In this document: in pieces, positions 7,083-23,700 of the stretch
Layout of the letters: each line of letters begins with the position of its first letter
Position numbering within the stretch: the first letter of the stretch is position 1
Source of the DNA: a virus
Reading direction: 5' to 3' (one strand)
IMG/VR virus record: IMGVR_UViG_3300030450_002666
Location: 1-31,401 of that record
DNA length: 31,401 nt
Made by a program: the position numbers and the translations under genes
The notes under the pieces: model-generated
Told to the model about the DNA's origin: nothing
What the model saw: the letters and a program-made list of their open reading frames with translations, nothing else
The model's database searches: none

Positions 7083-8051
7083 TTACTTCTGTGCTTCGCC
7101 GATGTTGTTTTGGATTCGGTTAAGCAACTCTGAAATTTGGCTAAGCTGTGCCTGTTGAGGGTCAATTGGTGTTGATGCAACAGGCTCAACTGGTACTGAT
7201 TCTTCTGGCTTAGTCTCCTTTACTGGTGTTGTGTTAGTTACACGGTTGAAAGTAAATGTCGAGAAGTGGCTTTCAGCATTCAGGACAAGCGACTCTAGTG
7301 CTGAACTTGGGAACTTGTACATCAAGGTGTGCATGATTGCATCCTTGATATCTAGTCCCTTATCGACAATGTTCTGAGTCACTCGAACAAAGTCACCAGT
7401 GTTGATTGTGGTGTCCTTAGAGTTACGAGAGTCCCGAACCCAGTTCATTAGCCGTTTACGTAACTGCTGAGGCTCATCAACCTTACTGTCAATGATTCCA
7501 GCAAGCACCTTGTCTTCATCGGCAAGTGGCTCAGTGATTTCACAAACATAGCTGAATCTGCGGAGCAAGGCAGAGTCGATTGCGCTAGTTGAATACTTGT
7601 TGCTAACAGGGTTAGCAGATGCAACAAACCAGAAGTCATTGTGAACATCTACGTTTGATACACCAGCTTCTGGCAACGACCAGTACCTGTTTGCACTATC
7701 CAAAATACCTAGCAACCTACCAGCTAGGTCACGAGGTGCCCTTGTAAGTTCTTCACCCAAGAACATCTTGCCGTTGCGGATTGCTTCAGTAAGCAAGCCG
7801 TCTTGCCATTCGATACCAACGCCACCATTTATAGGTTGCGGTCGCCACATACCAACTAGCTGGTCAACGCTCATCTTCGGGAAGAAGTTGATACCAGTAA
7901 AGTCACGGTCATGTTTAGCAGCGTAGTGTTTCAGCAAGGTTGTCTTGCCCCAGCCACTATCGCCAATGAGAAGTACAGGGTCAGGGTTGTGTAACTCCAT
8001 ATTGTCCAACACACTCTGACCAAATTCTGAAAGATAAACTGCGGATTCCAT
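7083..8051 (-). CDS. MoxR/CobS-like AAA+ ATPase
   Basis: A 322-residue ATPase. Walker A is GDSGWGKTT (residues 30-38), Walker B is KMFLGEEL (Glu100/Glu101), sensor 1 is FVASANP (Asn147), and LLRRFSYV gives the arginine finger (Arg164/Arg165). The motif order and the EE-LTRAPRD signature place it in the MoxR family, close to the CobS type found in many large phages. The last 70 residues are a Pro/Glu-rich linker and a short helix that may dock on the VWA partner. AGGAG lies seven bases before the ATG. The palindromic promoter at 8101-8145 lies just upstream, so this is probably the first gene of the replication transcript. Confidence 0.9.
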   Translation of the reverse strand: MESAVYLSEFGQSVLDNMELHNPDPVLLIGDSGWGKTTLLKHYAAKHDRDFTGINFFPKMSVDQLVGMWRPQPINGGVGIEWQDGLLTEAIRNGKMFLGEELTRAPRDLAGRLLGILDSANRYWSLPEAGVSNVDVHNDFWFVASANPVSNKYSTSAIDSALLRRFSYVCEITEPLADEDKVLAGIIDSKVDEPQQLRKRLMNWVRDSRNSKDTTINTGDFVRVTQNIVDKGLDIKDAIMHTLMYKFPSSALESLVLNAESHFSTFTFNRVTNTTPVKETKPEESVPVEPVASTPIDPQQAQLSQISELLNRIQNNIGEAQK

Positions 8052-8100
8052 ATAATCACTCCTATTATTTATTTGCCGATCACCAACCGATTTGGCGGTG

Positions 8101-8145
8101 CATATATTATTACACCATATCTATTGATATGGTATAATATATCTA
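8101..8145 (-). promoter_or_regulatory. palindromic promoter/operator P1 upstream of moxR
   Basis: ACCATATC (8114-8121) and GATATGGT (8126-8133) form an inverted repeat with AT-rich flanks that extend the symmetry. Read leftward, TTATAC (8137-8132) and TGTAAT (8114-8109) are spaced by 17 bp, a plausible sigma70 promoter for the ATPase operon. Read rightward, TTACAC (8110-8115) and TATAAT (8133-8138) are also spaced by 17 bp, but no rightward gene follows. The element recurs almost unchanged at 10534-10580. Confidence 0.65.
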
Positions 8146-8147
8146 AC

Positions 8148-8579
8148 CTAGTCGCACACTTTTTCCACCCCCACTTTGATCGTATCTAAAGCTGCTTGTA
8201 CCTGTTCTCTAATAGAACTGCTAGGCAAATGAGTAATAACCTTCGCAGTTTTAGTAAGGAACTGCCTAGAACCACACACTCTGCACTTAGCCTTATCAAC
8301 AGAATTAGTCCCAGCTGTTCGGGTAGTCAGCTTTACCCCTTGCATTCCTGACCCAATACACCTATTCATAAACTGTCTTAGGGCAGTTCTATGCGTAACA
8401 TTGTGAAGGTCAAAGTCTTTATAGCTAGACTGATAGCCTTCAATTGGGCTTTTGATTTCAACTGAGAAGATAAAATCTAGGTCTGGCTGAACACTACTAG
8501 GTACTCTGCCACACATAGCGCACTTCACTTCGTCCCAAAGCTGAAGAATTGAACCGCTGCAATACTCACATTTACTCAA
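8148..8579 (-). CDS. zinc-ribbon protein of unknown function
   Basis: A 143-residue protein with two cysteine clusters. The N-terminal ribbon is Cys4/Cys7 with Cys20/Cys23 (SKCEYCSGS and KCAMCGRV); a second CxxC is at Cys99/Cys102 (AKCRVCGS). The middle (about 35-90) is beta and helical with no known motif. Metal binding is likely; the target is unknown. The start is a TTG at 8579 with GGAGG five to six bases upstream, in a junction where the preceding stop TAG sits inside the ribosome binding region. It is the last gene before P1. Confidence 0.75.
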   Translation of the reverse strand: MSKCEYCSGSILQLWDEVKCAMCGRVPSSVQPDLDFIFSVEIKSPIEGYQSSYKDFDLHNVTHRTALRQFMNRCIGSGMQGVKLTTRTAGTNSVDKAKCRVCGSRQFLTKTAKVITHLPSSSIREQVQAALDTIKVGVEKVCD

Positions 8580-8580
8580 T

Positions 8581-8748
8581 CTAGCCTCCTTTGTAATTGT
8601 TTACCGCTTCGACGATCAAATTAGCGTTGGCGATTGCCTCCTCCGGGCTGTTGCCTTCAGCAGTACAAACGTAGTTGTCCTCATTTATGGCAGCAGACTG
8701 AACGTGTATTCCAGTTGCGTACCACGGTCTTGGTGTTGCTTCATTCAT
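8581..8748 (-). CDS. small conserved phage protein (ATPRPW...AIANANLIVEAVN type)
   Basis: A 55-residue protein starting MNEATPRPWYATG and ending in EEAIANANLIVEAVNNY. This arrangement is frequent in phages of Gram-positive and environmental bacteria, and no function is established that I know of. I choose the ATG at 8748 because AGGAG lies 11 bases upstream; a longer reading from a GTG at 8772 would place that site inside the gene. The preceding intergenic region carries the tandem dyads at 8767-8799. Confidence 0.75.
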   Translation of the reverse strand: MNEATPRPWYATGIHVQSAAINEDNYVCTAEGNSPEEAIANANLIVEAVNNYKGG

Positions 8749-8766
8749 CTTGTCGATTACTCCTTC

Positions 8767-8799
8767 TAACACTTGTTACTAGTCCGCTAACACTTGTTA
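8767..8799. promoter_or_regulatory. two tandem TAACACTTGTTA dyads, 21 bp apart
   Basis: TAACACTTGTTA occurs at 8767-8778 and again, identical, at 8788-8799. The start-to-start distance is 21 bp, two helical turns, so two dimers would bind the same DNA face. The pair fills the 63-base gap between two small genes of the leftward array. No good -10/-35 pair is visible here, so it may block or insulate transcription or serve in replication. Confidence 0.55.
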
Positions 8800-8811
8800 T
8801 TTACATCCCAC

Positions 8812-8973
8812 TTATCCATGTCCATACTCTAACTCCTCAATACTAGTTCGGAAGCGACGGATTCTAGAACGATACTTGGCTTTATCAAATCCAACTCGTT
8901 TACCAGTGTGGCAAAGTTCACAGCCACGATTTCGCCTAGCTTTAGACTTGCGGTGCTTCTTAGGTTTACTCAT
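8812..8973 (-). CDS. small basic CxxC protein
   Basis: A 53-residue, Lys/Arg-rich protein (MSKPKKHRKSKARRNRGCEL) with one CELC pair at residues 18-21 and a nearby His, followed by an arginine-rich helix (YRSRIRRFRTSIEEL). It could bind nucleic acid through its basic face; four metal ligands are not obvious. The ATG at 8973 overlaps the stop of the preceding gene in ATGAGTAA, a classic coupled overlap. A longer reading from 9048 would overlap that gene by over 80 bases and is not preferred. Confidence 0.7.
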   Translation of the reverse strand: MSKPKKHRKSKARRNRGCELCHTGKRVGFDKAKYRSRIRRFRTSIEELEYGHG

Positions 8974-9211
8974 CTGAGAAAAATCCATTCTCTCTAGTCC
9001 AGTACAACTTCTTCCAAGCGAAGAAACCAGTTGCCCATTGGTGTTCAAACTCCTCCTTTGAATAAGCTAGCGAATATGTAGTTCGACCATCGAACATATT
9101 GCCGTACTCGATGATATGAGTTACGGGTTCATCAGACTCACCGCCAGATGTATAAACCCCATCGTTGCTAGTTATCTGATCGACAATCCCTTTGTCGTTT
9201 ATGCTTGCCAT
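8966..9211 (-). CDS. small protein of unknown function
   Basis: An 81-residue protein. It holds a loop-rich N-terminus, then a possible beta hairpin (THIIEYGNMFDGRTTYSLAY) and an aromatic helix (SKEEFEHQWATGFFAWKKLY). It has no cysteines, unlike its neighbours. I recognise no family. GGAGGT lies 11 bases before the ATG at 9211, and the 3' end overlaps the next gene. Confidence 0.7.
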   Translation of the reverse strand: MASINDKGIVDQITSNDGVYTSGGESDEPVTHIIEYGNMFDGRTTYSLAYSKEEFEHQWATGFFAWKKLYWTRENGFFSDE

Positions 9212-9499
9212 CTAACTCTTACCTCCAAATAATGCTGCTAGTGTTACTGCAACAATTCCAACTAGTAGCAGGGCGACCGTCACCCTAGCTAGAACTATTT
9301 CGCTACGCTTCACCGTAACGTATTCAATCGGCTTATCAACTTTCTTGATAGCTAGCTCTTTATTGTGTTCGTAAAACTCTGGGTGAACTAGCCCAGACCA
9401 AGCATAGGGAAGGCACTTGGCACAGAACCGTTCACCGTTCAAAGCTGGAAGGATTTTTTCTCCAACTTTTTTGCACCAAGCACAAGTCTTTTCATTCAT
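9212..9499 (-). CDS. membrane-anchored zinc-ribbon protein
   Basis: A 95-residue protein with an N-terminal four-cysteine ribbon (Cys6/Cys9 in TCAWCKK, Cys26/Cys29 in RFCAKCLP). A charged middle follows, then one hydrophobic helix at about residues 69-91 (VALLLVGIVAVTLAALF), close to the C-terminus. The layout suggests a tail-anchored inner-membrane protein with its metal-binding domain in the cytoplasm. The junction GGGGTAAACCATG contains the previous gene's stop (TAA). A role in host takeover or superinfection exclusion is possible but unproven. Confidence 0.75.
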   Translation of the reverse strand: MNEKTCAWCKKVGEKILPALNGERFCAKCLPYAWSGLVHPEFYEHNKELAIKKVDKPIEYVTVKRSEIVLARVTVALLLVGIVAVTLAALFGGKS

Positions 9500-9502
9500 G
9501 GT

Positions 9503-9703
9503 TTACCCCTCAAAGCTGATATATGTACTGTCGTACCGAACCAAATAATCCCTAGTGCCATTCAAAGCACTTAGAACGAAGTCACCGCTCGGTGTTGTGA
9601 CCTTGTAAATGCCATGCTCCTTTCTAACGTCGAACAACTTAGAAGCCCTAAGCTGCTTTAGTACTTGTTGCAAAGCTGGCTTTGCCCATCGTTCGATTTT
9701 CAT
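9503..9703 (-). CDS. small phage protein of unknown function
   Basis: A 66-residue protein with a basic helix (QQVLKQLRASKLFDVRKE) followed by a beta-rich half (GIYKVTTPSGDFVLSAL, then YLVRYDSTYISFEG). The shape suggests a small alpha/beta domain. I recognise no family. It is joined to the preceding gene by AAGGAGTAAACCATG, in which the upstream TAA stop lies between the ribosome binding site and this ATG. Confidence 0.7.
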   Translation of the reverse strand: MKIERWAKPALQQVLKQLRASKLFDVRKEHGIYKVTTPSGDFVLSALNGTRDYLVRYDSTYISFEG

Positions 9704-9706
9704 GGT

Positions 9707-9895
9707 TTACTCCTTTTCTGCCCAGTTCCCGTTCCAGAGATGAAGTAAACTGTCTGCACAGCCCTTGCAGAACATTCCATCGAATCTAGTTGTATCAGCG
9801 TCCTCAAGTCCACAATCGGTGCAAATGCCAGCGTCGCGCTGTGCTAGTTGCTGGTTTATTCGGTTCGTTGCAAATGGTGACTGTTCGATATACAT
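9707..9895 (-). CDS. small zinc-finger protein
   Basis: A 62-residue protein with Cys25/Cys28 (GICTDCGL) and Cys43/Cys46 (MFCKGCAD), spaced as in treble-clef or DksA/TraR-like fingers. The first 20 residues are polar (NRINQQLAQRD). It lacks the long coiled coil of DksA, so an RNA polymerase secondary-channel role is not supported. It starts after the shared junction CTAGGAGTAAACCATG, where TAG is the stop of the gene before it. Confidence 0.75.
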   Translation of the reverse strand: MYIEQSPFATNRINQQLAQRDAGICTDCGLEDADTTRFDGMFCKGCADSLLHLWNGNWAEKE

Positions 9896-9904
9896 GGTTT
9901 ACTC

Positions 9905-10240
9905 CTAGTCCCGTTCCAGACCGTTTACTTCATCTTCGGTGAAGCCAGCTGCATCTAGGGTTCGTCGAATCAGATGCTCAACTTCACCAGCCTCTAGGTT
10001 TCCGGTTTCACCAGCTAGCAATTCGATAATCGTCTTCGCTAACTTGAGATACGAAGTGCCTAGAACATAATCGTCACCGATTTTGCTTCCATACCTAGCT
10101 TCGTATTCAACCCTGTAGTCCTGTAGCCCTTCGATCAGGCTAACGAAAGGTGCTTCGAAGCCCTTCGGAGTCAACCAAGCCCTGACGTGGCGGTTCTTCC
10201 AGCCTTCAGTTTTAGCAACCTTGCCTTTTACGTTATTCAT
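9905..10240 (-). CDS. helical protein of unknown function
   Basis: A 111-residue protein, predicted largely helical, with segments FVSLIEGLQDYRVEYEARYG and YLKLAKTIIELLAGE and an acidic end. I recognise no family. Two in-frame ATGs exist: the one at 10246 is only two bases from AGGAG, while the one at 10240 is eight bases away and is chosen. The region upstream reads CTAGTAACTAGGAG, giving the previous stop and the ribosome binding site. Confidence 0.7.
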   Translation of the reverse strand: MNNVKGKVAKTEGWKNRHVRAWLTPKGFEAPFVSLIEGLQDYRVEYEARYGSKIGDDYVLGTSYLKLAKTIIELLAGETGNLEAGEVEHLIRRTLDAAGFTEDEVNGLERD

Positions 10241-10251
10241 ATTCATAACTC

Positions 10252-10488
10252 CTAGTTACTAGCAAATTCACAATCAATACCAGTTGGTATGCAGTACTCA
10301 CAATCAATACCAGTGATTACAACCTTGTTGCAACCATCGTTGGCACAAAAGACACAAGTGTCTGACTCGTAGCCAGTTGGATAGGCTTCTGCTTTGTCAT
10401 TGAAATAAGCACAAGTGCTATTGCAATAGACTTTTATGTCTACGGCATCACCTTGTTTATCTTCAACAAATTCAACATGGATAACCAA
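10252..10488 (-). CDS. cysteine-rich protein with internal repeat
   Basis: About 78 residues with cysteines in pairs: YCNSTC, CVFC, DGC and DCEYC. The C-terminus repeats itself (TGIDCEYCIP, then TGIDCEFASN). Metal binding is likely. I place the start at a TTG at 10488 because AGGAG lies seven bases upstream, matching the TTG starts of other genes here. An upstream in-frame ATG at 10536 would fall directly at the promoter P2, with no leader or ribosome binding site. The ATG overlapping the ribosome binding region is out of frame. Confidence 0.65.
   Translation of the reverse strand: MVIHVEFVEDKQGDAVDIKVYCNSTCAYFNDKAEAYPTGYESDTCVFCANDGCNKVVITGIDCEYCIPTGIDCEFASN
10268..10314. repeat. 30-bp-period direct repeat inside the cysteine-rich gene
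   Basis: The 17-mer TCACAATCAATACCAGT occurs at 10268-10284 and again at 10298-10314. The 30-base period keeps the reading frame and duplicates ten codons including one cysteine. Confidence 0.85.
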
Positions 10489-10533
10489 TTCATAACTCCT
10501 AATTTCATTAGCCGACCGACCAATTGCCGACGA

Positions 10534-10580
10534 CATATATTATTACACCATACCTAAAGGTATGGTATAATATATCTAAT
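10534..10580 (-). promoter_or_regulatory. palindromic promoter/operator P2, near-copy of P1
   Basis: ACCATACC (10547-10554) and GGTATGGT (10559-10566) flank a TAAA loop, with the same AT-rich surroundings as P1. The core differs from P1 mainly in compensating changes: ATATC/GATAT in P1 has become ATACC/GGTAT here, so symmetry is kept, as expected of a protein-binding operator. Leftward TTATAC-17-TGTAAT would drive the lower half of the small-gene array, starting with the cysteine-rich gene. Rightward TTACAC-17-TATAAT is also present. Confidence 0.65.
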
Positions 10581-10581
10581 G

Positions 10582-10728
10582 CTAGTTGATTCCGGTCTCC
10601 GCCGAGCAGTCTATGCAGCCGAATCTGCCAGTTGGTTTTATAAATTCACCTTGAATTTCATCGACATCGAAGATGAACAGTTCATCCCAGCGGTGAAATC
10701 CTAGTAGGCAAAGCAATTTTCCTAACAA
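10582..10728 (-). CDS. DUF1660-like small zinc-ribbon protein, paralogue A
   Basis: A 48-residue protein with a KLLCLLGFHRW start, a beta stretch and CIDC (Cys38/Cys41). The arrangement [KLLC..G.H.W]...CxxC is typical of the small DUF1660-type phage zinc ribbons. The start is a TTG at 10728 with AGGAG seven bases upstream; the upstream gene's TAG lies between them. It is paralogous to the next gene upstream, sharing a KLLC.LGFH.W core and clear DNA similarity. Family assignment is by motif only. Confidence 0.6.
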   Translation of the reverse strand: MLGKLLCLLGFHRWDELFIFDVDEIQGEFIKPTGRFGCIDCSAETGIN

Positions 10729-10731
10729 GTT

Positions 10732-10848
10732 CTAGCTCCTTTGTTCCCAGCAAGCCCTAATACATATTTCCGGCTTGCTTTTATGTGTAAATACTGGCTC
10801 CCAAAGATGAAATCCTAGCGAGCAAAGTAGTTTTTTTAGCCAATACAT
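10732..10848 (-). CDS. DUF1660-like small protein, paralogue B, shortened ribbon
   Basis: A 38-residue protein starting MYWLKKLLCSLGFHLWEP. It shares the KLLC.LGFH.W core with the gene just downstream, and the DNA at 10808-10837 resembles 10694-10720, so the two arose by tandem duplication. Here the second half differs: only single cysteines (Cys9, Cys29, Cys34) remain, with no CxxC, so the ribbon may be degraded or have different ligands. The ATG at 10848 is preceded by AGGAAACAGGA. Confidence 0.5.
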   Translation of the reverse strand: MYWLKKLLCSLGFHLWEPVFTHKSKPEICIRACWEQRS

Positions 10849-10857
10849 TCCTGTTTC

Positions 10858-10878
10858 CTAGTTCCTAGTTGCTAGTTC
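10858..10878. repeat. triple CTAGTTN heptamer at a gene end
   Basis: CTAGTTC, CTAGTTG and CTAGTTC follow one another at 10858-10878 and include the stop of the small helical gene. Double versions occur at 11041-11054 and 11425-11438, and related forms at 10251-10261, 11478-11491 and 11623-11633. On the coding strand these give AACTAG units from which stop codons and AGGAG sites are built. Confidence 0.7.
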
Positions 10879-11031
10879 TACGATTAGTGCCGCTTCAACT
10901 TGGGTCAAGCAGCAATCAACTAGCTTCTTAGCTCCGTCCTGTTGAATTTCCATAACCGCGAATAGCTTTACTGCTTCCGGTACACCTTCATAGCACTTGT
11001 TAGCTACGACATCTTCTTCGATTCGGTACAT
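10858..11031 (-). CDS. small acidic helical protein
   Basis: A 57-residue protein (MYRIEEDVVANKCYEGVPEA and onwards) that is mostly helical, with Cys40/Cys41 adjacent and the ending LIVELATRN encoded by the heptamer repeats. I recognise no family. AGGAG lies six bases before the ATG, in the junction CTAGTAACTAGGAG shared with other genes here. Codon-by-codon reading shows no internal stop. Confidence 0.6.
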   Translation of the reverse strand: MYRIEEDVVANKCYEGVPEAVKLFAVMEIQQDGAKKLVDCCLTQVEAALIVELATRN

Positions 11032-11047
11032 TTGTAACTCCTAGTTA

Positions 11048-11179
11048 CTAGTTTTCTGGACAGTCGTTAGAATGTCCATCTTCACAAGCTAGACACTCCG
11101 GGCAATGAAGCTCTAAGTCTTCATAGCAGTGAGTGCAAATATCCATACACTTCGGACAGCCTGATTCACAACAATCCAT
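11048..11179 (-). CDS. 43-residue cysteine-rich zinc-binding protein
   Basis: A tiny protein with ten cysteines in 43 residues: C3, C4, C8, C11, C15, C18, C26, C29, C32 and C40, including CPKC, CTHC and CPECLAC. Two zinc-ribbon knuckles can be drawn, and His17, His25 and His36 offer further ligands. The rest is acidic. The ATG at 11179 follows AGGAAG by six bases; the TAA of the upstream gene lies in between. It resembles small phage ribbon proteins in style but I cannot assign a named family. Confidence 0.65.
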   Translation of the reverse strand: MDCCESGCPKCMDICTHCYEDLELHCPECLACEDGHSNDCPEN

Positions 11180-11182
11180 TGG

Positions 11183-11398
11183 TTACTTCCTAGTCCAAAA
11201 TGCGTCGTCACTTCCGAAGAAGCTAGCACTTATTACAGTTTCGCTATGCCAAGTTGCTTTGAAGTAGAAGGGGTCTTCGGCTCCAGTTGCTAGTTGGGTT
11301 TTGATAGAACGACGTTCCGCTTTAGTGCTAGTTCGTCGGTCGAACTTAGTCTTCGGTTCGACTCTTAGGTACTTAGACTTTCGATAGCTTCGGGACAA
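11183..11398 (-). CDS. small basic protein of unknown function
   Basis: A 71-residue protein. The first 45 residues are strongly basic (SRSYRKSKYLRVEPKTKFDRR, then TKAERRSIKTQL) and suggest nucleic-acid binding. The second half is aromatic (DPFYFKATWHSE, then SDDAFWTRK). The start is a TTG at 11398 with GGAG eight bases upstream. I recognise no family. It is the second gene of the array, after the 143-residue gene. Confidence 0.65.
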   Translation of the reverse strand: MSRSYRKSKYLRVEPKTKFDRRTSTKAERRSIKTQLATGAEDPFYFKATWHSETVISASFFGSDDAFWTRK

Positions 11399-11519
11399 TT
11401 CGATTACTCCAATTTCAATTCTGACTAGTTGCTAGTTTCGAGGTAACTCGTCAGCTTGGGCTACCAATACCCAAGAACTAGCTACTAGCTGCCCCGAAGG
11501 GCAACTAGTAAGCCAAGTC

Positions 11520-11951
11520 TTACGACTTGGCTGAGATAGCTGCCAAAGCAGCTGTCATGGCTTCCATCGAAGCAGCAAGCTGCTTCATGGTGGATTCGAT
11601 AGAATCCAGTTGCGGAGAGTTGCTAGTAACTAGCTCCGGAGCCTTGTTACGAATGGAATCATTCGTAACTTTCGACTTCTTGGCAACTTTCGTTGCCTTC
11701 TTGCTGGTCTTACGACCAGCTAGTGCAAGCAGCTCCTTACGGAGCAGCTTGGTGGTCATGGACTTCGGAACCACAACCTTCCATAGCTTCGCTATGGCGA
11801 CTAGTTCGGCTTTCACCAACCGAAGGTCGTTTCGTCCAAATTCGGTCTTACCGAATTCTGCGTTGTAACGACGAATGTCGTCGCTGGGCGTTAGAGCGAT
11901 TTGCTGCAAATCGCTGAGGGCTGCTATGTCGTACTTCGTTGCCAATTTCAA
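11520..11951 (-). CDS. Lys-rich protein of unknown function encoded through a hairpin array
   Basis: A 143-residue protein. Residues 40-78 are helical (RLVKAELVAIAKLWKVV, then TKLLRKELLALAGRK) and recall a small SAP/HeH-type nucleic-acid-binding helix pair. Then comes a lysine-rich linker (KTSKKATKVAKKSKV) and a C-terminal amphipathic helix (MKQLAASMEAMTAALAAI) that could oligomerise. The layout fits a DNA-binding or histone-like protein, but no family is recognised. GGAG lies six bases before the ATG. The gene is filled with perfect short hairpins, including one that surrounds the stop codon (11511-11532), and a 110-nt hairpin ends about six bases before the GGAG site. It is the first gene of the leftward set. 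Confidence 0.65.
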   Translation of the reverse strand: MKLATKYDIAALSDLQQIALTPSDDIRRYNAEFGKTEFGRNDLRLVKAELVAIAKLWKVVVPKSMTTKLLRKELLALAGRKTSKKATKVAKKSKVTNDSIRNKAPELVTSNSPQLDSIESTMKQLAASMEAMTAALAAISAKS

Positions 11952-11961
11952 ACTCCAAATC

Positions 11962-12071
11962 GGTCTGGTTGGAACCCCTCAACCATCTGGAGGGGTTCTA
12001 CGGGGTATCAACCCCCTATTAGGGGGTATAATACCCCTTCAAACCCCTCCGGTTGATGGGTTCCACCGACC
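11962..12071. other. long imperfect hairpin, about 43 bp, upstream of the 143-residue gene
   Basis: Nested pairings: GGTC/GACC (11962/12068), GGT/ACC, GGAACCC/GGGTTCC (11971/12058), TCAACC/GGTTGA (11979/12051), a four-base bulge, GGAGGGGTT/AACCCCTCC (11989/12042), GGGGTAT/ATACCCC (12002/12031), and an inner ACCCCCT/AGGGGGT (12011/12021) with an ATT loop. It ends about six bases before the GGAG of the leftward gene, so it would form most of that mRNA's proximal leader. An alternative 9-bp hairpin (11972-11998) competes with part of it. Confidence 0.75.
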
Positions 12072-12323
12072 TAGCCACCAACTGCCATCGCCTTGTGACG
12101 CCGACCGATCGCTAGGACGGTAGTCCGGTGTCAGTCCGCACAGGAAACCCAGAGAGAGCATAGGCTCTCTGGGTACACGCAGCGCAGGATTATAGCCCCA
12201 GTTCAAATCGGGGTGGAAAATGTGCCAATTTCAGCAGCCTCCAACACGCGCCAGACCACCGTTGGTGGTCTGATACAGAGTCCCCAGACTCTGACTAGCT
12301 GGTTCTCTGGGGAGAACCGAAGT

Positions 12324-12368
12324 GTAACAACACAGTTGTTACAACACTAGTAACACTTGTTACTAGTG
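12324..12368. promoter_or_regulatory. two adjacent perfect dyads with GTAACA/TGTTAC arms
   Basis: GTAACAAC (12324-12331) and GTTGTTAC (12335-12342) pair around ACA. Next to them CACTAGTAACA (12345-12355) and TGTTACTAGTG (12358-12368) form a 24-bp perfect palindrome. The core TAACACTTGTTA (12351-12362) equals the sites at 8767 and 8788, and a degenerate match begins exactly 21 bp before it, at 12330. Probably a binding site for a dimeric regulator or replication protein. Confidence 0.6.
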
Positions 12369-12446
12369 AGAGGGTGAGCCGACACCCTCTGGGGAGGGTG
12401 ACACTCCTCGGGGATGCCGAGTGCCTCCACGCTTCAGGGGGCAATT

Positions 12447-12472
12447 GGGTTGTGGGTGGTGTGGGTGGTGGG
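12447..12472 (+). other. G-quadruplex-capable tract in a G/T-only stretch
   Basis: Four GGG runs start at 12447, 12454, 12463 and 12470 with loops of 4, 6 and 4 bases, satisfying the standard G-quadruplex pattern. The surrounding bases 12445-12485 are only G and T, and no C occurs from 12443 to 12528. A GGGGGGG run lies at about 12518-12524. On the opposite strand this is a C/A tract. Confidence 0.65.
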
Positions 12473-12619
12473 TGGTGGTGTGGTGAGGTGGTGTGTGGTG
12501 GTGTGTGTGTGATGGATGGGGGGGTATGCTGTGGAAGTAGGAGGAGTAAGGGTGAGTGACACCCCTCTGACAGATTATTTTTTCGCCTTGCCTTCCCCCT
12601 ATAACCCCCATGTAGTTTA

Positions 12620-12648
12620 GTAACACCTGTCTTTAAAACAGGTGTTAC
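12620..12648. promoter_or_regulatory. inverted dyad, 11-bp arms
   Basis: GTAACACCTGT (12620-12630) and ACAGGTGTTAC (12638-12648) are exact reverse complements around a 7-base loop. Each arm is a near-complete copy of the TAACARGTGTTA dyad, so the element could bind two dimers or form a hairpin. It is upstream of the rightward packaging genes. Confidence 0.55.
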
Positions 12649-12691
12649 GTTCCCCTAACCCCCCTATAGTCCCCCCTTCCCCCAATTTTCA

Positions 12692-12713
12692 GTAACAGGT
12701 GTTACAGGTGTTA
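12692..12713. promoter_or_regulatory. two overlapping TAACAGGTGTTA dyads
   Basis: GTAACAGGTGTTAC (12692-12705) overlaps TTACAGGTGTTA (12702-12713), with a 9-bp register shift. This is the dyad nearest to the terminase gene, about 170 bases upstream, and may control late transcription. Confidence 0.55.
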
Positions 12714-12819
12714 CAGTAGAGCTGGTTACAGTTTTGCATCCGGGGCGGTTTTCTTTCTCGCCGTCCTCGTCAGGGATAAGCTGATCTAAAAAGGTGCAGT
12801 TTTAGGTCTTGGTAGCCAC

Positions 12820-12860
12820 GGGGGTTCTGGCACTCCGCCTCCTTAGCTGCCGGAACCCCC
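12820..12860 (+). other. hairpin just upstream of the terminase gene
   Basis: GGGGGTTC (12820-12827) pairs with GAACCCCC (12853-12860), continued by GGCA/TGCC inside, around a C-rich loop of about 16 bases containing CCTCC. It ends 12 bases before the terminase ribosome binding site GGAGAG. CCTCC in the loop could compete for that site, but no long pairing is visible. A leader structure or a packaging-signal structure are both possible. Confidence 0.5.
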
Positions 12861-12885
12861 ACCCAATATGTTGGAGAGAGAAACA

Positions 12886-14262
12886 ATGTTGTTATCGGAA
12901 GACCGAAAAGCCTTACTAAACTCAATTGACGTTGATACTTGGAAGGAGCAAGAAGAGATTCTTGACCATCCTGCTCGAATAAAGCTGGTAGCTGGAGGTG
13001 AGCGAGCAGGTAAGAGTTTTCTTGGTGCTTTGTCAATTATCAGCAAGCTTGATGAATTTCAGCCCAATGATGTTGTTTGGTTGGTGGCAAGAGACTACGA
13101 GCGTACCCGTGCTGAGTGGAATTATTTGACAGATATGTTGGGCAAGCTTGGTTTCTTGGTAAAACAAACTAAGCGTATTGACCCCGGTGAAATGCAGGTA
13201 GTTTGTGGGACTACTGAGGTTCCCGGAACGTTTACGATTAAAACTAAATCGGCAAATGACTACCGAAGTTTGGCTATGGAAGCCCCAAGAATGGTAGTTA
13301 CGTGCGAAGCATCACAGATTGACCACGATAGTTTCTTAAGACTCCGTGGTCGTATCGCAGAAAAACGTGGGTATTTGTTCTTAGAGGGGACATTTGAAAT
13401 GTCTCTCGGCTGGTATCCGTCCCAATGGGAAGCTTGGCGTTTTTATCACTCTGAAGACGACGCAATTTCTTTTTCTTTGCCTTCTTGGACCAATAAAGTT
13501 GTCTATCCGGGCGGAGAAGAAGACCCGGAAATCGAATCGCTAAAGCGATTGCACTCTGAAAACTGGTTTAACGAGCGAATTGCTGGAAAACCTGCGCCTC
13601 CAAGGGGTCTTGTTCACGACACGTTCGACATGATTCGCCACGTTTCGGACAAAATTACCTATATTCCGGGAGAACCAGTCCATTTGTGGATTGACCCGGG
13701 GTATTCGCAGGTAACTAAGTCAGCTTATGCAGTTGAAGCTGTGCAAATTATCGACGGACAAGTTAGAGTTATTGACGAAATCTATGAGCGACTTAAAATC
13801 ACAGAAGAAATAATTGACATTTGTCAAGTAAAACCGTGGTGGCAGGACGTTTCTAGCGGTGTAATTGACATAGCTGCTCATAATTTTGGTGAATCCAGAC
13901 CTGTAGATACTTGGTTGCAGCAAGCTGGGTTGTATATGCACTCTGAAAGAGTAGGGATTATGGACGGAATCGAAAGATTCAATACTTACTTGAAGGAAAA
14001 TCCTGTGACTCGACAGGCAAGTATCATGTTCAACCCAAAATGCGTAGGGGTTTTGTCAGAGTTGGGAGCTTGCGCTAACCCGTTTGACGACCAAATGCAC
14101 GTTTACACTTGGAGAACAGACCGAGACGGTAACGTCGTAGGAAAAACTCCTAGGGATGCTTTCAATCACGGCGTAAAAGCGATAACCTACGGTCTTGTAT
14201 CGAACTTTGGCTTCGCCAGAACTACGGGGCAGGGGAGCTTAATTGCCGTAAACAGGTGGTAA
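12886..14262 (+). CDS. terL: terminase large subunit
   Basis: A 458-residue packaging motor. The N-terminal ATPase has Walker A GGERAGKS (residues 37-44) and a Walker B strand RMVVTCEASQ with catalytic Glu141. The C-terminal RNase H-like nuclease has LWIDPGYS (Asp270), SGVIDIAAHN (Asp328) and PRDAFNHGVKAI (Asp424, His428), the usual metal-binding acidic set. The protein cuts concatemeric DNA and pumps it into the procapsid. I prefer the ATG at 12886 because GGAGAG lies seven bases upstream; an in-frame ATG at 12868 has no ribosome binding site. No small terminase subunit is recognisable nearby. It opens the rightward module. Confidence 0.92.
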   Translation: MLLSEDRKALLNSIDVDTWKEQEEILDHPARIKLVAGGERAGKSFLGALSIISKLDEFQPNDVVWLVARDYERTRAEWNYLTDMLGKLGFLVKQTKRIDPGEMQVVCGTTEVPGTFTIKTKSANDYRSLAMEAPRMVVTCEASQIDHDSFLRLRGRIAEKRGYLFLEGTFEMSLGWYPSQWEAWRFYHSEDDAISFSLPSWTNKVVYPGGEEDPEIESLKRLHSENWFNERIAGKPAPPRGLVHDTFDMIRHVSDKITYIPGEPVHLWIDPGYSQVTKSAYAVEAVQIIDGQVRVIDEIYERLKITEEIIDICQVKPWWQDVSSGVIDIAAHNFGESRPVDTWLQQAGLYMHSERVGIMDGIERFNTYLKENPVTRQASIMFNPKCVGVLSELGACANPFDDQMHVYTWRTDRDGNVVGKTPRDAFNHGVKAITYGLVSNFGFARTTGQGSLIAVNRW

Positions 14263-17463: not shown

Positions 17464-17775
17464 GTGGCTGCAATAGATTCTTTATTTTCATCTTTTCTAG
17501 AGGAAGAACCTAAAGCTGCGTTTTTTGGAACCTTGCAACAGCGGGGGATGCTCGACACTCCTACAAGGCAGAGGCAAGCTTCGGATATTTATAACCAAGC
17601 TATGCAAGGTTTCTATGGTCAGCTTGGCGCGCAAGTGTTAGGCGGAGAAGCTCCTACACTTACGTTTACTGATTACCTTGAACAGTTTCCGTTTACAGAA
17701 AGGTTTGCCCAACTAGGCAGATCGTTTAATCAGTCCAATAGGTTTTCTCCACGAACTAGATTCTTGTACTACTAA
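17464..17775 (+). CDS. small virion-module protein of unknown function
   Basis: A 103-residue protein beginning MAAIDSLFSSFLEEEPKAAF, helical with an aromatic C-terminus (FSPRTRFLYY). The start is GTG with AGGAGG five bases upstream. It ends in TAATG, overlapping the polyvalent protein start by one base. Its aromatic C-terminus (FLYY) resembles the end of the preceding protein (FIGSRYGLI) only in style. No family recognised. Confidence 0.68.
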   Translation: MAAIDSLFSSFLEEEPKAAFFGTLQQRGMLDTPTRQRQASDIYNQAMQGFYGQLGAQVLGGEAPTLTFTDYLEQFPFTERFAQLGRSFNQSNRFSPRTRFLYY

Positions 17776-20700
17776 TGGTTACTTCCTTTCAAAACTTCTT
17801 AAATAGCCGGGAGCAAAAGGACGCAACCTTCCCTGTTGTTCGTTCTAATAACCGCAGCTTTGCTCGCGTTAATCCTCTTACCCCTGAAGACCGGGAATGG
17901 CAAAACTCGGAAGAGTATAAGGCTGTTCAGAACAGAGTAGATGCAGGAGAGTTTTCTTACTCCTACGGGGCACTCGCCCAAGGCAACAGGGCGAGAATTC
18001 AAGCATTTAATAATGCGCGAAAAGACTTCGAGCAAAGAAAGAAAATAGAAGCTGAAGCCAAGAACATTAGGTCAGTTCGTATTTACAACTTGCAGGGTGA
18101 AGAATACGACCCTCAAAAAGAATCTCCCGAAACATTTCTTGAGCGTGACAAGAATAACTACATAACTCAGAACGACCTACAAAGTTTTACTTCTAGCAAC
18201 GCTGAAGCTGAAGCTCTTTACTACCAGCAACTGGTTGACTCTAACAACTTCCGTGCGCGAAAAGAGTACGGCGGTGCAGTTATTGACCGTCCAGTAAACC
18301 TGCCTACTGGTGACTTTAACGCGCAAATTAATGTTTACAAAACTAAAATTCTTGAAAGCCTAAGACCCTCAGTTACTCCGGGGGCAGGTACAAGAACTGG
18401 CGCGCAGGTAACTGCAAGTAGAGAAATAAAAGGTGGCAGAAGGTTTGCTAAAACCGTAGGCGGGTTTGCTAACCCAGCATCTACAACTTTCTTGCCAAAC
18501 ATGATAGCTTCGTCCGCTCTTTACCAATTGGGCAAAACAACTACAGGTAACGAGGGTGTAGCAAATGTAATGGGGCAAGCTGGACAGTTTGTAGGTTTTG
18601 GTCTTGCTGGTAAAGCATCAACTGCGTTTGCAAAAAAAGAAGTTATTGACCTTGCAAATCTTGGATGGAAAACCCTTAAAGGAAGTAAAAACCTACTTCA
18701 AAAAACTTTTGGTAGTAAAAAATCAAGGTCAGCTGAGCAACTACAAAATGCAATCCAAGACGCTGCTGCAAGCCCTCCAAGCACCCAGCTAACTAGGGAA
18801 GAATTAATACAGAGTGGCTACACAACGCCAGAGCTAAGACTTGCTTACAACAGGTCGCAGATTAACCCAGACGCTAGCCAGCGAAGCTACCAAACAACCT
18901 TCCTCAATGAAGCTGAGGATGGAAGTATTGAGTTTACTACTGGCAATAAATCAATAAAGGTTACAGATGTAGACAGTTTTGTAGACGCATCCTCAGATGT
19001 TCTAGGTCTTCAAGATGAAGTTCGGGAAACGCTGAGACCCATACTGAGAAATCTTTTTGTTGGTATAGGTCGAAGTATGAGAGTAACGGCAGACGAGGCT
19101 GCCCGCATGTCAGTAAGAGAAGTTTATGAACTTCCTAGTGGCACAAAAAATAAAGTAGCTGAGTTTGCAGCTGACTCCAATAATGTTGGCATTGACCTAA
19201 TACAAAACCTTGGCGGTGTTATTGGATACGTCAAGTACGGCAAGGCTCCAGCGCAGCAAGCTGATGGCTATGTCAGTGTCCTTCACGAAGTAGGTCACGC
19301 AATTCTTCCAGCTGTTCTCAGAATTGCAAAAGAAACAACACCAGCTAATAAGAAAAGTTTTGCAAAAGTTCTGCAAGAAAGAATTATTGACCGTGGAACT
19401 TTTACTGAAGCTCAAAAAAATATAATTTACCAAACAGACTTAGATGAACTGGTTGATGCTGTACATGGCTCGTACAGAAACAGGAGTTCATTTAATAAGT
19501 TAAGTGAGCTTGAGCAAAACGGGGAAGACTTTGGTCTCCAGCTAAACGAAGCATTTACTGAACTTTTTGTTAAATACATGCACGATGTAGCTTCAACTCA
19601 AAGAAGAGCTTACTCATTTGAAGTATCAGGCTTTTTAGATGAGGCTACTGCTTTTACTCAAAAAGCATTAACAACCCTGCTTAAAGAAAATGCACAGCTT
19701 AGCGGTGCTGCTTTTGATGCACCGAAGTATGCTAACTTCACAACTTTCAGATTGTTGCTTGACGCAGTTCTTACTGGCGATACAAGTAAGCTGTCAGACC
19801 CTGCGATAAATAAAACATTTAGAGAAATCTCCCTTTACTCTGACCAAGACCAAACTCCTATGGAAGTCAACAACATGGTTGATTACATTCTTGGGAGAAA
19901 AAACAGGGACTTTGATGTAGACGAGTATGTAGAAGATGCTGTTTTGTATGGCAAAGCAGTTACTGATATTGAAATACCGTTTAGGGAATTTCATGTAACT
20001 AATGTGTTTAGAAATATAGCTTTAGCCAAGCTAGGCGACGACCCTGTATACGCTCCGCACCTAGAACTAATTAGAACTGGTAAGGGAGGGGACTTAATTT
20101 CAAACTTCTTAGATGATTCTAATTGGCAGATGCTACGTGATTTAAAAATAGCAACTGAAACAGTTCTTTTTGATTCTAAAAACAAGGCTGCCAACCTGTG
20201 GGAGCTTTCTCCACAAATGCAAGAGCAACTAGTTCTTGTTAACTCCCTAGACGCGAATGATGTTGCGGCATCTGCATTCAAGGATTCCCGTGGCAGACCA
20301 GCCGTTTTCTTTCACGGCGGGACAGAATGGAAAGTTTTTGACCACGAACAAACAAATACTTTTGAAGGTCTATGGGGACCGGGGCTTTACTCTACAGACT
20401 CTCCTACTTCTGCAACTTACTTATACAATTACCTTGAAAAACAAGCCCGAGCAATAGAGGAGTTCGAGTTATCAGGGGCTATTGGTCTTACTGAAGAATA
20501 TAAACAGTATTCCGCACTTGGAAGAATCAGAGCTTTTTCAATAAAAGTCCCTGAAAGCAAAGTTTTTAATGCAGCAGCTGTTGGAGATTCAGATGCGGTT
20601 GCTACTAGGTATTTTAATACCTTGTTTTCGGATAAAGGTTTAAGTGAATTACATAGAGCCTTCCCAGATGTGGTTCCAGATGATGTAAGAGTTGGGGACA

Positions 20701-23700
20701 TAGAAGACTTATTTAGCCGAGATATTTTAAAAGATATAAGGTCAGCTCTTCCGGTCCAGCTTTCAAGGGCAATGTTTGAAATTATGGACTTTGACCCTAA
20801 ACTTTTAAATTTTGCACCTGACGCAGCAAGACGGTTAACAGACAACCCGGACGAATTTTTTAATCTTTACCTAAACGAAAAACAAGGCATAAAGGTTTTT
20901 GGTGAAGACTTTTACGAAAGTTTCCCTGTAAGTCAAACCGCAGAGTACGGTTGGAACTTTGGTTCTTCTTGGTCAGAGGCTCTTCAGCTAGCTTCAATAA
21001 GAGCAACCAAAAACGTTCTTGACTATTACTCCTACAGTCGGAGCTTGGATAATGTCGAGCTTACTTTTTCTCAAAAAGAATTTATAAAAAAGGTTAACGA
21101 AGACTTCGCTAAGTTTGAAGGCAGCGATGGTAAATACGACGGGAGTTTAAATTTTTCTATTCCTGAAGGCTTTTACACACTTCCTTATGTTTGGGATGCA
21201 ACTAGGGCAATAAACCTTAATGGTGATATAGCAAGAAGTTCAAGCTATCTATCAGACCCAGCTAGAGGCTTAAACAATACTCAAAGAGTTCTTACAGAGC
21301 TTGCCTTTAGTCATAAAACAGGAGACCTGCTTCAAGGTTTTGCGTTCGGAATACGCCCGGAGAAGGTTGACAAAAGGTTTCTTGACAGGTTTAACGGCAT
21401 TTACGATGAAGCTCAAGTTGAAGTCTTAGACACAATTGGCGGTATGAACATTGAAGGCATTCCGCACAAGGTCCCTATTCTCGTTGGAAGCAATGCAGCT
21501 ATTAACAGAAATATTGCATATGTGAAGATGACAGATGATGTTCCTTCTGGGACTGGCGACTACCTGCCCATGGAGCAACAACGGGGAACTGTGTTTGCTA
21601 GAAAGGGCGAAGCCCCCGACGACTCTATTCCAGCAGACAAGGTTGACGTTCAGAAAAGTTCTTACGGTAACGAAGTAGGTTCTGCTCTGGAAAGATTTAA
21701 CCAGCCAAGAATTGAATTCTCTAAAAAAGTAAGAGACCAAAAACTTGCAGCCACAGAACAGAATACTACCGGGCTAAACAAACAAGAAGCAGATGCCACT
21801 AAGCTAAATGTTCAGGCTAAGCAAGACCAAGGTCTTAATGCTTCAACTGGTAAAACGGATAACGCAAATATAATCCCCGGCGGTACAAACACTAGCTTTG
21901 CTTTTGGCTCTTACACACCACTAGCTGGTGATGTGCTTCGTGAAGTTCTCTTGTCCCCAACAGATGGGGTTCTTAGAACTAGCACAGGCATAACTGAGGA
22001 AGGTCAAAAGCGAATATACGAAGCTGTAGTTCCACGTATTAAAGAGCTGTTCGACTCTGAAGATTACAAGCAAGCCCTAAAGATAAAAAAAGACGCTACT
22101 GATAGAGCAGCAGCGCAAGCTAACGTAATTATAAAAACCGCTGAAGAATACAGAAAAACTGGCAGGTACACCGACCTTCAAGCAACAAAAGTTTCTGATG
22201 CTGCTATGCGTAAAAGCGAGCAAGTAAAGCAAGCTGAAGAAGACGCAAGGAATCTATTTCAAAGAATAGATATGCACCCTCTCGAAGTGCAAGCCCTGAT
22301 AGATCATGGCGAAAAGGTTCTAGCTGAAAAAGCTTTGCGTGGTGAAATTGGACGCAAGGCTCCTACGGGTAAACGTCAGCTTGGTGCAAAGATTGGAAAA
22401 GAATCAGGTGTGGCAGAGCTTGGTGGATTTTCTCAGCAAGATTACCGTGCAGCAGTTAAGAAGCTCCTTGGGCTTGACATTGAATCTAATGCCAAGGTTA
22501 TTCAAGATGCTTTGGATTCAGGCGATACCAAGATAGCAAACATCGACATTGCAGAATCGTTTGGAACTAGAAAGCTAAGTTACGCCGAAGTATTAACACC
22601 AAGAGAAACAGTAATTATTGGTGAAGCATTAGGGATTACAGTCAAACGTCAAAGTGAAGTTATGAGTCTTCGACGGTCGCTATGGCGATTGTTTGCTAAC
22701 GTTTTTAATTTGTCTCGAATAACAATGCTAACTGGTGATGCGTCGCCAATTATGAACCAAGGCGTTGTTCTTGGGTTTGGGTCATTTAGTAAAGTAAAAG
22801 GCTGGACCAACCTTGCTGAATCCATAGTCGGAACTCTAAGTGCTGGTAACTACAACAAGCAGATGCTTGCTATTTATTCCGACCCAGATTACGCAGCTAT
22901 GGAAAAAGCTGGTGTATTTATTGGTGACATAAATGGACCGCTAGCTAAACGAGAAGAAGCGTTCTTGGCTAACCTTTTTGGCTCTTCAAATGAAGTTGGC
23001 GTAATTGTTAAAAAATACCCTGCTCTAAAACCGTTTGTAAAAGTAGGCGCACCAGTAGTAAATGTTGTTGGCTACCCAATTAGGGCAAGCCAAAGATTCC
23101 ACACCTTGTACTTAAACAAACTTAGGTACTCAGCTGTTAAAGACTTCAACCGCGGTTTAATTGATAGCGGGTTGCCTGATTCAGTAAGGAATCAATTTAC
23201 AAAAAGGTATGCAGACTTTGTAAACAAAGCTACTGGAAGAGGCACTCTTTACGGGTTGGAAAAACTTCAGACAGAGCTTAACGATATTCTCCTTGCTCCT
23301 AGATGGTTAGCAAGTCGGGTTCAAACTCCTATTGCAATTATGGGTAGCGTTGGAACAGACGTTGCTGAGTATTACGGAAAGAAGGGAATTAAAACTGCAT
23401 CAGGGCAGAGGGTTTACGATTTCCAAGTAAGCAAGCAAATAGCTAACGACCTGATTAGGTCTTTTGCTGTCTTTAGCACTATTTCAGGAATACTTATAGC
23501 AGGTGGATACAAGCTGCACTCTGACTGGAGAAGAAGTGATTACGGGAAGCTAGAAAAGGGCAAAATAAATATAGATATTACCGGGGGTCTTGGTCCTATA
23601 TTTAGATTTATGGCTAGGACTACAAAAGCGTTTGTTGATGGCACGGCTGTAAGCACTATGGGCGTAACTTACTCAACAAATGCTGGGCAAATGTTTGAGT

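Follow-up and report, generated by a model that had tools for sequence, protein, structure and literature searches.

To our knowledge, perfect hairpins fill genes almost nowhere except in the mitochondria of hairworms, where they are unexplained. Perfect inverted repeats, with both arms coding, lie in the mitochondrial coding genes of Nematomorpha, and template switching has been named as a possible mechanism (PMC6649704, PMC10380579). Template switching creates and maintains perfect hairpins, and loops that are stable in both DNA and RNA (GNRA, CTTG) are enriched among them (PMC8794818). The promoters of phage N4 are hairpins with a 7-bp stem and a 3-nt loop, in which a C:G closing pair and a loop of the form G..A are needed for extrusion at physiological supercoiling (PMC4496689). 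Here we describe a 31.4-kb phage contig (IMG/VR record IMGVR_UViG_3300030450_002666; this whole stretch of DNA is the window) in which about a kilobase is filled with short perfect hairpins. We refer to this region as a hairpin storm.

As in the palindromes of Nematomorpha, perfect repeats run through coding sequence with both arms coding, and protein and structure are kept together. However, the arms in Nematomorpha reach 142 bp and occur in many genes along the genome with no local focus, whereas the stems of the storm peak at 7 bp, have loops of 3 to 4 nt, occupy a single region of 1 to 3 kb, reach into noncoding DNA, and involve one gene family. Hairpins made by template switching (PMC8794818) share with the storm perfect stems, multi-base compensation, and an enrichment of CTTG, but they are scattered events in cellular RNA genes; in the storm, hairpins with a tuned stem length are packed densely into one place. 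The commonest class of storm hairpin, though not every hairpin, has the short geometry of the N4 early promoters. In N4, a virion RNA polymerase reads three promoters that are conserved in sequence, in contrast to the dozens of unrelated stems here; this precedent matches a single hairpin, not the array. RNA phages (MS2, Qbeta, and PP7) likewise carry hairpins through coding sequence, at a density far below the storm's 10 to 23 per kb. We found no counterpart of a localized hairpin storm in the open-access literature that we searched.

The storm is carried by a fast-evolving family of uncultured phages, in which it recurs naturally about ten times, storm-free relatives serve as controls, and one gene is a candidate partner. 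Two questions become testable in this family: whether DNA structure is selected through coding sequence, and what share template switching has in making or maintaining hairpins. Should the array prove functional, shape and stability, not sequence, would define this control or origin element, which homology-based annotation cannot see.

Hairpin density and genome setting

The storm sits between the two arms of the genome (Table 1). The left arm carries early and replication genes on the minus strand, and the right arm, read from the plus strand, carries the genes for terminase, portal, and capsid. Of the window's perfect stems with 7 bp or more, 36 in all, 17 fall in the 2 kb from 11001 to 13000. 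All four hairpins named in the original prediction are present exactly where it placed them, the 10-bp stem at 11646-11669 and the 9-bp stems at 11511-11532, 11895-11915, and 12252-12272. The hairpin-dense kilobase that it described is real, and the phenomenon is much larger than was claimed; the spacing is looser, with one hairpin per ~40 to 55 bases instead of 25 to 40. Neighboring genes had been said to contain far fewer hairpins. Most other genes of the window are near chance; the portal and MCP genes and the genes for proteins of 322 and 685 aa show a small excess, mainly of 5- to 6-bp stems. Three features add to that description: ORF143 is a minus-strand gene next to noncoding control DNA, the storm stops just short of the G/T-rich tract that starts at 12440, and a quasi-palindrome covers 11962-12071. 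No tRNA or tmRNA was found.

Table 1. Features of the hairpin storm and its borders (window coordinates; L004 is the relative grouped with the window)
Feature	Position	Strand	Description
Conserved 52-bp element	11431-11482		Directly 3' of ORF143
Hairpin storm	11439-12421		~18 perfect stems of 7-10 bp, short loops; spans ORF143 and its upstream noncoding DNA
Hairpin over ORF143 stop region	11511-11532		Stem 9, loop 4
ORF143, VTGG family	11520-11951	-	Small basic protein: 4-helix N-terminal domain, disordered basic linker, C-terminal helix; start probably TTG at 11945, by alignment to L004
Hairpin GAAGCAG-caag-CTGCTTC	11569-11586		Stem 7; L004 lacks one outer pair
Hairpin	11591-11608		Stem 7; full compensation in L004, TGGATTC to TGGACTC
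Hairpin	11646-11669		Stem 10, loop 4
Hairpin	11703-11720		Stem 7, gene-strand loop GTAA; stem retained in L004
Hairpin	11781-11797		Stem 7, gene-strand triloop cGAAg; stem retained in L004
Hairpin	11839-11857		Stem 8; L004 compensates one pair via E to K change
Hairpin	11895-11915		Stem 9; two pairs compensated in L004
Nested quasi-palindrome, ~110 nt	11962-12071		Inner stem ACCCCCT-att-AGGGGGT; between ORF143 and remaining control region; retained in L004 with compensation, GGGGTAT/ATACCCC to GGGATAT/ATATCCC
Hairpin	12147-12174		Stem 10, loop 8; kept in L004
Hairpin	12252-12272		Stem 9; L004 has a different 8-bp stem instead
Five hairpins in series	12276-12390		12276-12293, 12301-12318, 12323-12343, 12345-12368, 12369-12390; stems 7-10; L004 retains most
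G/T-rich tract	12440-12545	+	Best 77/80 bases G or T; right storm border
11-bp hairpin GTAACACCTGT..ACAGGTGTTAC	12620-12648		~250 bp before terL; most relatives have a hairpin at that position
Terminase large subunit (terL)	12886-14262	+	Listed ORF 12868-14262; start probably at 12886, by alignment to L004; first gene right of control region

Neither codon-preserving nor dinucleotide shuffles ever reached the density of the storm. ORF143 contains 12, 10, and 7 stems of at least 5, 6, and 7 bp, respectively, compared to 2.9, 0.75, and 0.31 (± 0.54) in synonymous-codon shuffles, of which 0 of 300 reach the observed counts. In the noncoding part (11952-12421), where dinucleotide shuffles yield 0.13 stems of at least 7 bp, there are 8, a number that none of 500 shuffles attained. 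Single-strand folding z-scores are -10.7 for 11439-11951 and -9.8 for 11952-12421. Storms of the family hold 10 to 23 hairpins per kb. By comparison, control phages (lambda, N4, HTVC010P, Krampus, and IME-EFm1) have at most 2 to 5 perfect stems of at least 7 bp per kb, and the RNA phages MS2, Qbeta, and PP7 have at most 3 to 5, their helices being mostly imperfect. A sequencing artifact was ruled out by the presence of storms in many metagenome data sets, by intact reading frames, and by compensated changes. Mobile palindromes (REP, Rickettsia palindromes) were also ruled out: the stems are unrelated, and there is no second copy of the storm in the record, where the sole extra self-match of the region is one palindrome to itself.

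Distribution and the VTGG gene

We used the terminase to fetch relatives, 14 and then 80 loci, with 64 to 94% identity; it was found in no bacterial genome searched. The same storm is present in about ten clades, one per genome and to the left of terL, and other clades are without it. Perfect stems of at least 7 bp peak sharply at -1500 to -500 from terL in many clades (window/L004, L025, L095, L009/L011/L015/L016, L039/L040, L069/L070/L081, L076, and L077, with a weaker peak in L005). The longer contigs have no hairpin peak besides the storm. Across the phage family it extends over 1 to 3 kb at the genome center, through genes and gaps alike. The storm of L092, 3 kb with 52 hairpins, covers noncoding DNA and genes of both strands, including the 5' parts of both divergent genes and a small-terminase-like gene on the opposite strand.

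ORF143 belongs to a fast-evolving protein family, VTGG, with the motif VT(G/S)Gx(I/V)D, a lysine-rich linker, and a C-terminal helix. AlphaFold predicts the four-helix domain at moderate confidence, followed by the disordered linker and the helix. Scanning with ORF143 only returned no relatives, an alignment-based scan returned storm relatives only, and neither Pfam nor PHROG matched ORF143 or its homologs, nor did any PDB fold significantly. With an 11-member profile, we found the VTGG gene in or beside the storm in every storm clade and in none of the storm-free clades. The best hairpin density is 3 to 23 per kb with the gene versus 0 to 3 without it (Mann-Whitney p of 1e-5, not corrected for phylogeny). 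Storms are weak in the VTGG-bearing clades L078, L083, and L087. In L076 and L077, the VTGG gene adjoins the storm rather than lying inside it, and other small genes are filled with hairpins. These gene contents, together with those of the L092 storm, indicate that place, and not gene identity, sets the location of the hairpins. We propose the VTGG protein as a candidate partner that binds or organizes the array.

One short motif of VTGG proteins, LLDKNGxxLxGxAxxxRIxKL, is also present in proteins of L117 (4479-6746, in tandem), L116, and L121, which are apparently T4-like phages and storm-free. We rejected kinship of VTGG to T4-like phage proteins through LLDKNG-type motifs: only the short motif is common, and those phages have no storms.

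Hairpin anatomy

We determined the stem-length distribution in ten storm loci for hairpins with loops of 3 to 4 nt. It is bimodal, being approximately at chance up to 4 bp, with a trough at 5 and a peak at 7. There are 83 stems of 7 bp (1.6 expected), 51 of 8, 25 of 9, and 6 of 10, and perfect stems longer than 10 bp are rare. Among 265 distinct hairpins, the loop has 3 nt in 141 and 4 nt in 104. Longer stems are richer in AT (rho = -0.20, p = 0.002). The folding energies of storm stems scatter less than those of random stems of the same length, with a CV of 0.30 versus 0.38 under DNA parameters and 0.35 versus 0.44 under RNA parameters. These results suggest that stability is the target, rather than length or sequence.

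Storm stems are mutually unrelated in sequence; what recurs is the loop and its closing pair. In 142 triloop hairpins, the loop is closed by C-G in 87, T-A in 34, G-C in 12, and A-T in 9. This bias toward C-G and T-A is confined to the loop-proximal pair and has largely faded one or two pairs further out; hairpins outside the storms of these genomes do not show it. A bias that is both loop-proximal and storm-specific argues that the stems fold as single strands and are not dyad binding sites. GNA triloops (59, both strands counted) are enriched on both strands. TNNA tetraloops number 34, compared to 6.8 expected, CTTG loops are enriched, and UNCG is seen once where 1.7 are expected.

Turnover and covariation

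ORF143 is only 25 to 71% identical between phages whose terL is 84 to 94% identical. The near-identical phages L011 and L015 share 95 to 100% identity around the storm and 84 to 88% inside it, and between L039 and L040, identity drops from about 97% to 61 to 65% at the storm. Whole hairpins are gained or lost, and the storm locus is mosaic. Close pairs show whole-stem replacements and hairpin-sized indels, with too few close relatives to polarize these changes. Between clades, the turnover of stems is complete.

The original prediction looked to relatives for compensating changes, and it is indeed through such changes that stems are preserved. Neither outcome that it had named as refuting, equal density in shuffles or stems not conserved by compensation, was observed. 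Paired double changes in homologous genes number 47, compared to 7.9 expected; one-sided changes in homologous stems are G.T in 23 cases and A.C in 26. In one hairpin, CTTCACC-gaa-GGTGAAG has become GAAAGAC-gaa-GTCTTTC, so that 6 of 7 pairs are replaced around the same loop, and the protein changes from SSPKVK to RKTKSF. In another, AATTCGGT-aag-ACCGAATT has become AATTTGGT-aag-ACCAAATT via an E to K change. Triloop hairpins in genes are distributed 40/7/33 over the codon phases, and the phase that is avoided is the one pairing third positions together, which indicates that the proteins are still under constraint.

Possible origin, folding strand, and competing explanations

In each of five long contigs, the cumulative GC skew reaches its minimum inside the storm or no more than ~250 bp away from it; this minimum coincides with the switch in gene orientation, where a minimum is expected even without an origin. 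We consider the storm region likely to be a replication origin. Three readings had been offered in the original prediction. A single-stranded DNA or origin structure fits best, since the GC-skew minimum is located here, the storm crosses noncoding DNA and genes of both strands, and G.U is not preferred over A.C. A noncoding RNA of conserved architecture is not supported, because no Rfam family matched at gathering score and stem turnover between clades is complete. Selection at the RNA level is weakened. A microRNA model on the 11962-12071 palindrome, on both strands, reached 40 bits against a gathering score of 100, and we discarded it as a generic long-hairpin match.

The best explanation for the array, its position, its folding signature, its covariation, and its gene association is, tentatively, a DNA mini-hairpin array at the divergent central control region, and likely origin, of this phage family. 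The strands would part at the control region, through supercoiling between divergent promoters or through unwinding of the origin. Each perfect repeat of 7 to 9 bp, with a C-G-closed loop of 3 to 4 nt, would then fold onto its own strand, like the hairpins of N4 early promoters. Pattern and stability would be kept, rather than sequence, with the arms rewritten or repaired in step; template switching probably assists this rewriting, and the overlapping genes would have to accommodate it. The VTGG protein would bind or organize the folded array. A bolder version, which we think somewhat unlikely, is that the storm represents a new kind of viral cis-element. Such an element would be a DNA hairpin array encoded by structure and independent of sequence; it would act at the phage origin or divergent control region together with a dedicated protein partner of the VTGG family, encoded within the array or next to it, and it would take precedence over protein constraint where genes overlap it.

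The storm could instead be a hot spot of template switching, at which, during replication near the genome center, the nascent strand repeatedly folds back, perfects quasi-palindromes, and adds or deletes hairpins, giving mainly a mutational product that weakly constrained genes tolerate and that has no function of its own. Such events would account for whole-hairpin indels, for mosaicism, for the perfection of the stems, and for several bases being compensated at once. Hypervariability restricted to the storm (99 to 100% identity elsewhere, 84 to 88% inside) and the lack of a preference for G.U also agree with this explanation, as do the CTTG loops, which are enriched in storms as they are in template-switch hairpins (PMC8794818). 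However, the sharp peak at 7 bp and the narrowed energies suggest a stability target, the storm is kept across clades that have differing genes there and is tied to one gene family, and storm-free relatives share the layout and the G/T tract. We regard a pure template-switch origin as unlikely.

Another possibility is that selection acts on RNA, with the 5' parts of the divergent transcripts forming stable hairpins, either as protection from host nucleases or RNA-guided defense or as a protein-binding transcript. Many stems do lie within transcribed genes, and the L092 storm covers the 5' parts of both divergent genes. In coding parts, loops on the mRNA strand are A-rich (GAA, AAA, TAAA), which could be explained by coding or by RNA selection. 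Loop energies beat background under nearest-neighbor parameters for RNA (t of about -5 to -8) and not under those for DNA, a comparison confounded by the fixed outer stem. Perfection of the stems points the other way: ~82% are perfect in storms versus 34% in RNA phages. G.U shows no excess over A.C inside stems, beside them, or between homologous stems, a test of limited power, as RNA controls differ from storms only at a p of 0.06. At the first unpaired position outside the stems, we counted 35 G.T (40 expected) and 49 A.C (45 expected). Counting internal mismatches reveals no G.U excess even in RNA phages, and we therefore place the weight on perfection, the first outside pair, and covariation. 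The near absence of UNCG and the lack of an Rfam family also speak against RNA, as does the predominance of triloops over tetraloops; in rRNA hairpins, loops of three make up 6% and loops of four 42% (PMC8794818). The RNA-level explanation is thus quite unlikely in our view. Weighing this evidence, we find DNA as the folding strand possible, at somewhat under an even chance, and RNA rather improbable.

It is highly improbable that, as in N4, a phage-encoded RNA polymerase uses several of the mini-hairpins as single-strand promoters. The geometry is shared (7-bp stems that end in a C-G pair and a 3-nt loop of the GNA type; PMC4496689), but the density of such hairpins in N4 does not exceed 5 per kb, and its promoters share conserved bases whereas the storm stems are unrelated. 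No RNA polymerase was found by Pfam or PHROG match in the scanned proteins, including one of 2295 aa, although a very divergent enzyme could escape. The 2295-aa protein, encoded at 17775-24662, has no Pfam or PHROG match and carries a zinc-peptidase-like HEVGHA motif.

Elements flanking the storm

The 52-bp element at the left edge of the storm is nearly invariant and common to several relatives (L004, L005, L009, L015, and L018). It has the potential to form a three-way junction from CTAGTT/AACTAG, CGAG-GTAA-CTCG, and CTTGGG..CCCAAG, with compensated pairs. The tetranucleotide CTAG is strongly over-represented in 8001-12430, with 60 copies; 46 of these are in 8001-11400, where 12.4 are expected. 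Mini-palindromes of the form CTAGTnACTAG frequently overlap the ribosome-binding sites of small genes on the minus strand (AACTAGTAACTAGGAGTT).

On the right side, G/T-rich tracts are found 430 to 780 bp upstream of terL in most relatives, including those that are storm-free. Iteron-like ACAGGTGTTAC repeats occupy 12620-12720, with one arm pair within the 11-bp hairpin, followed by AACAGGTGTTACAGGTGTTACAG; these are possible initiator or repressor sites. The leader of terL (12819-12886) has a hairpin, GGGGGTTCTGGC..GCCGGAACCCCC, whose loop contains CCTCC, complementary to the GGAG ribosome-binding site of terL. Relatives such as L040 and L011 also keep CCTCC in the loop of a hairpin. These features suggest a translational switch or a pseudoknot.
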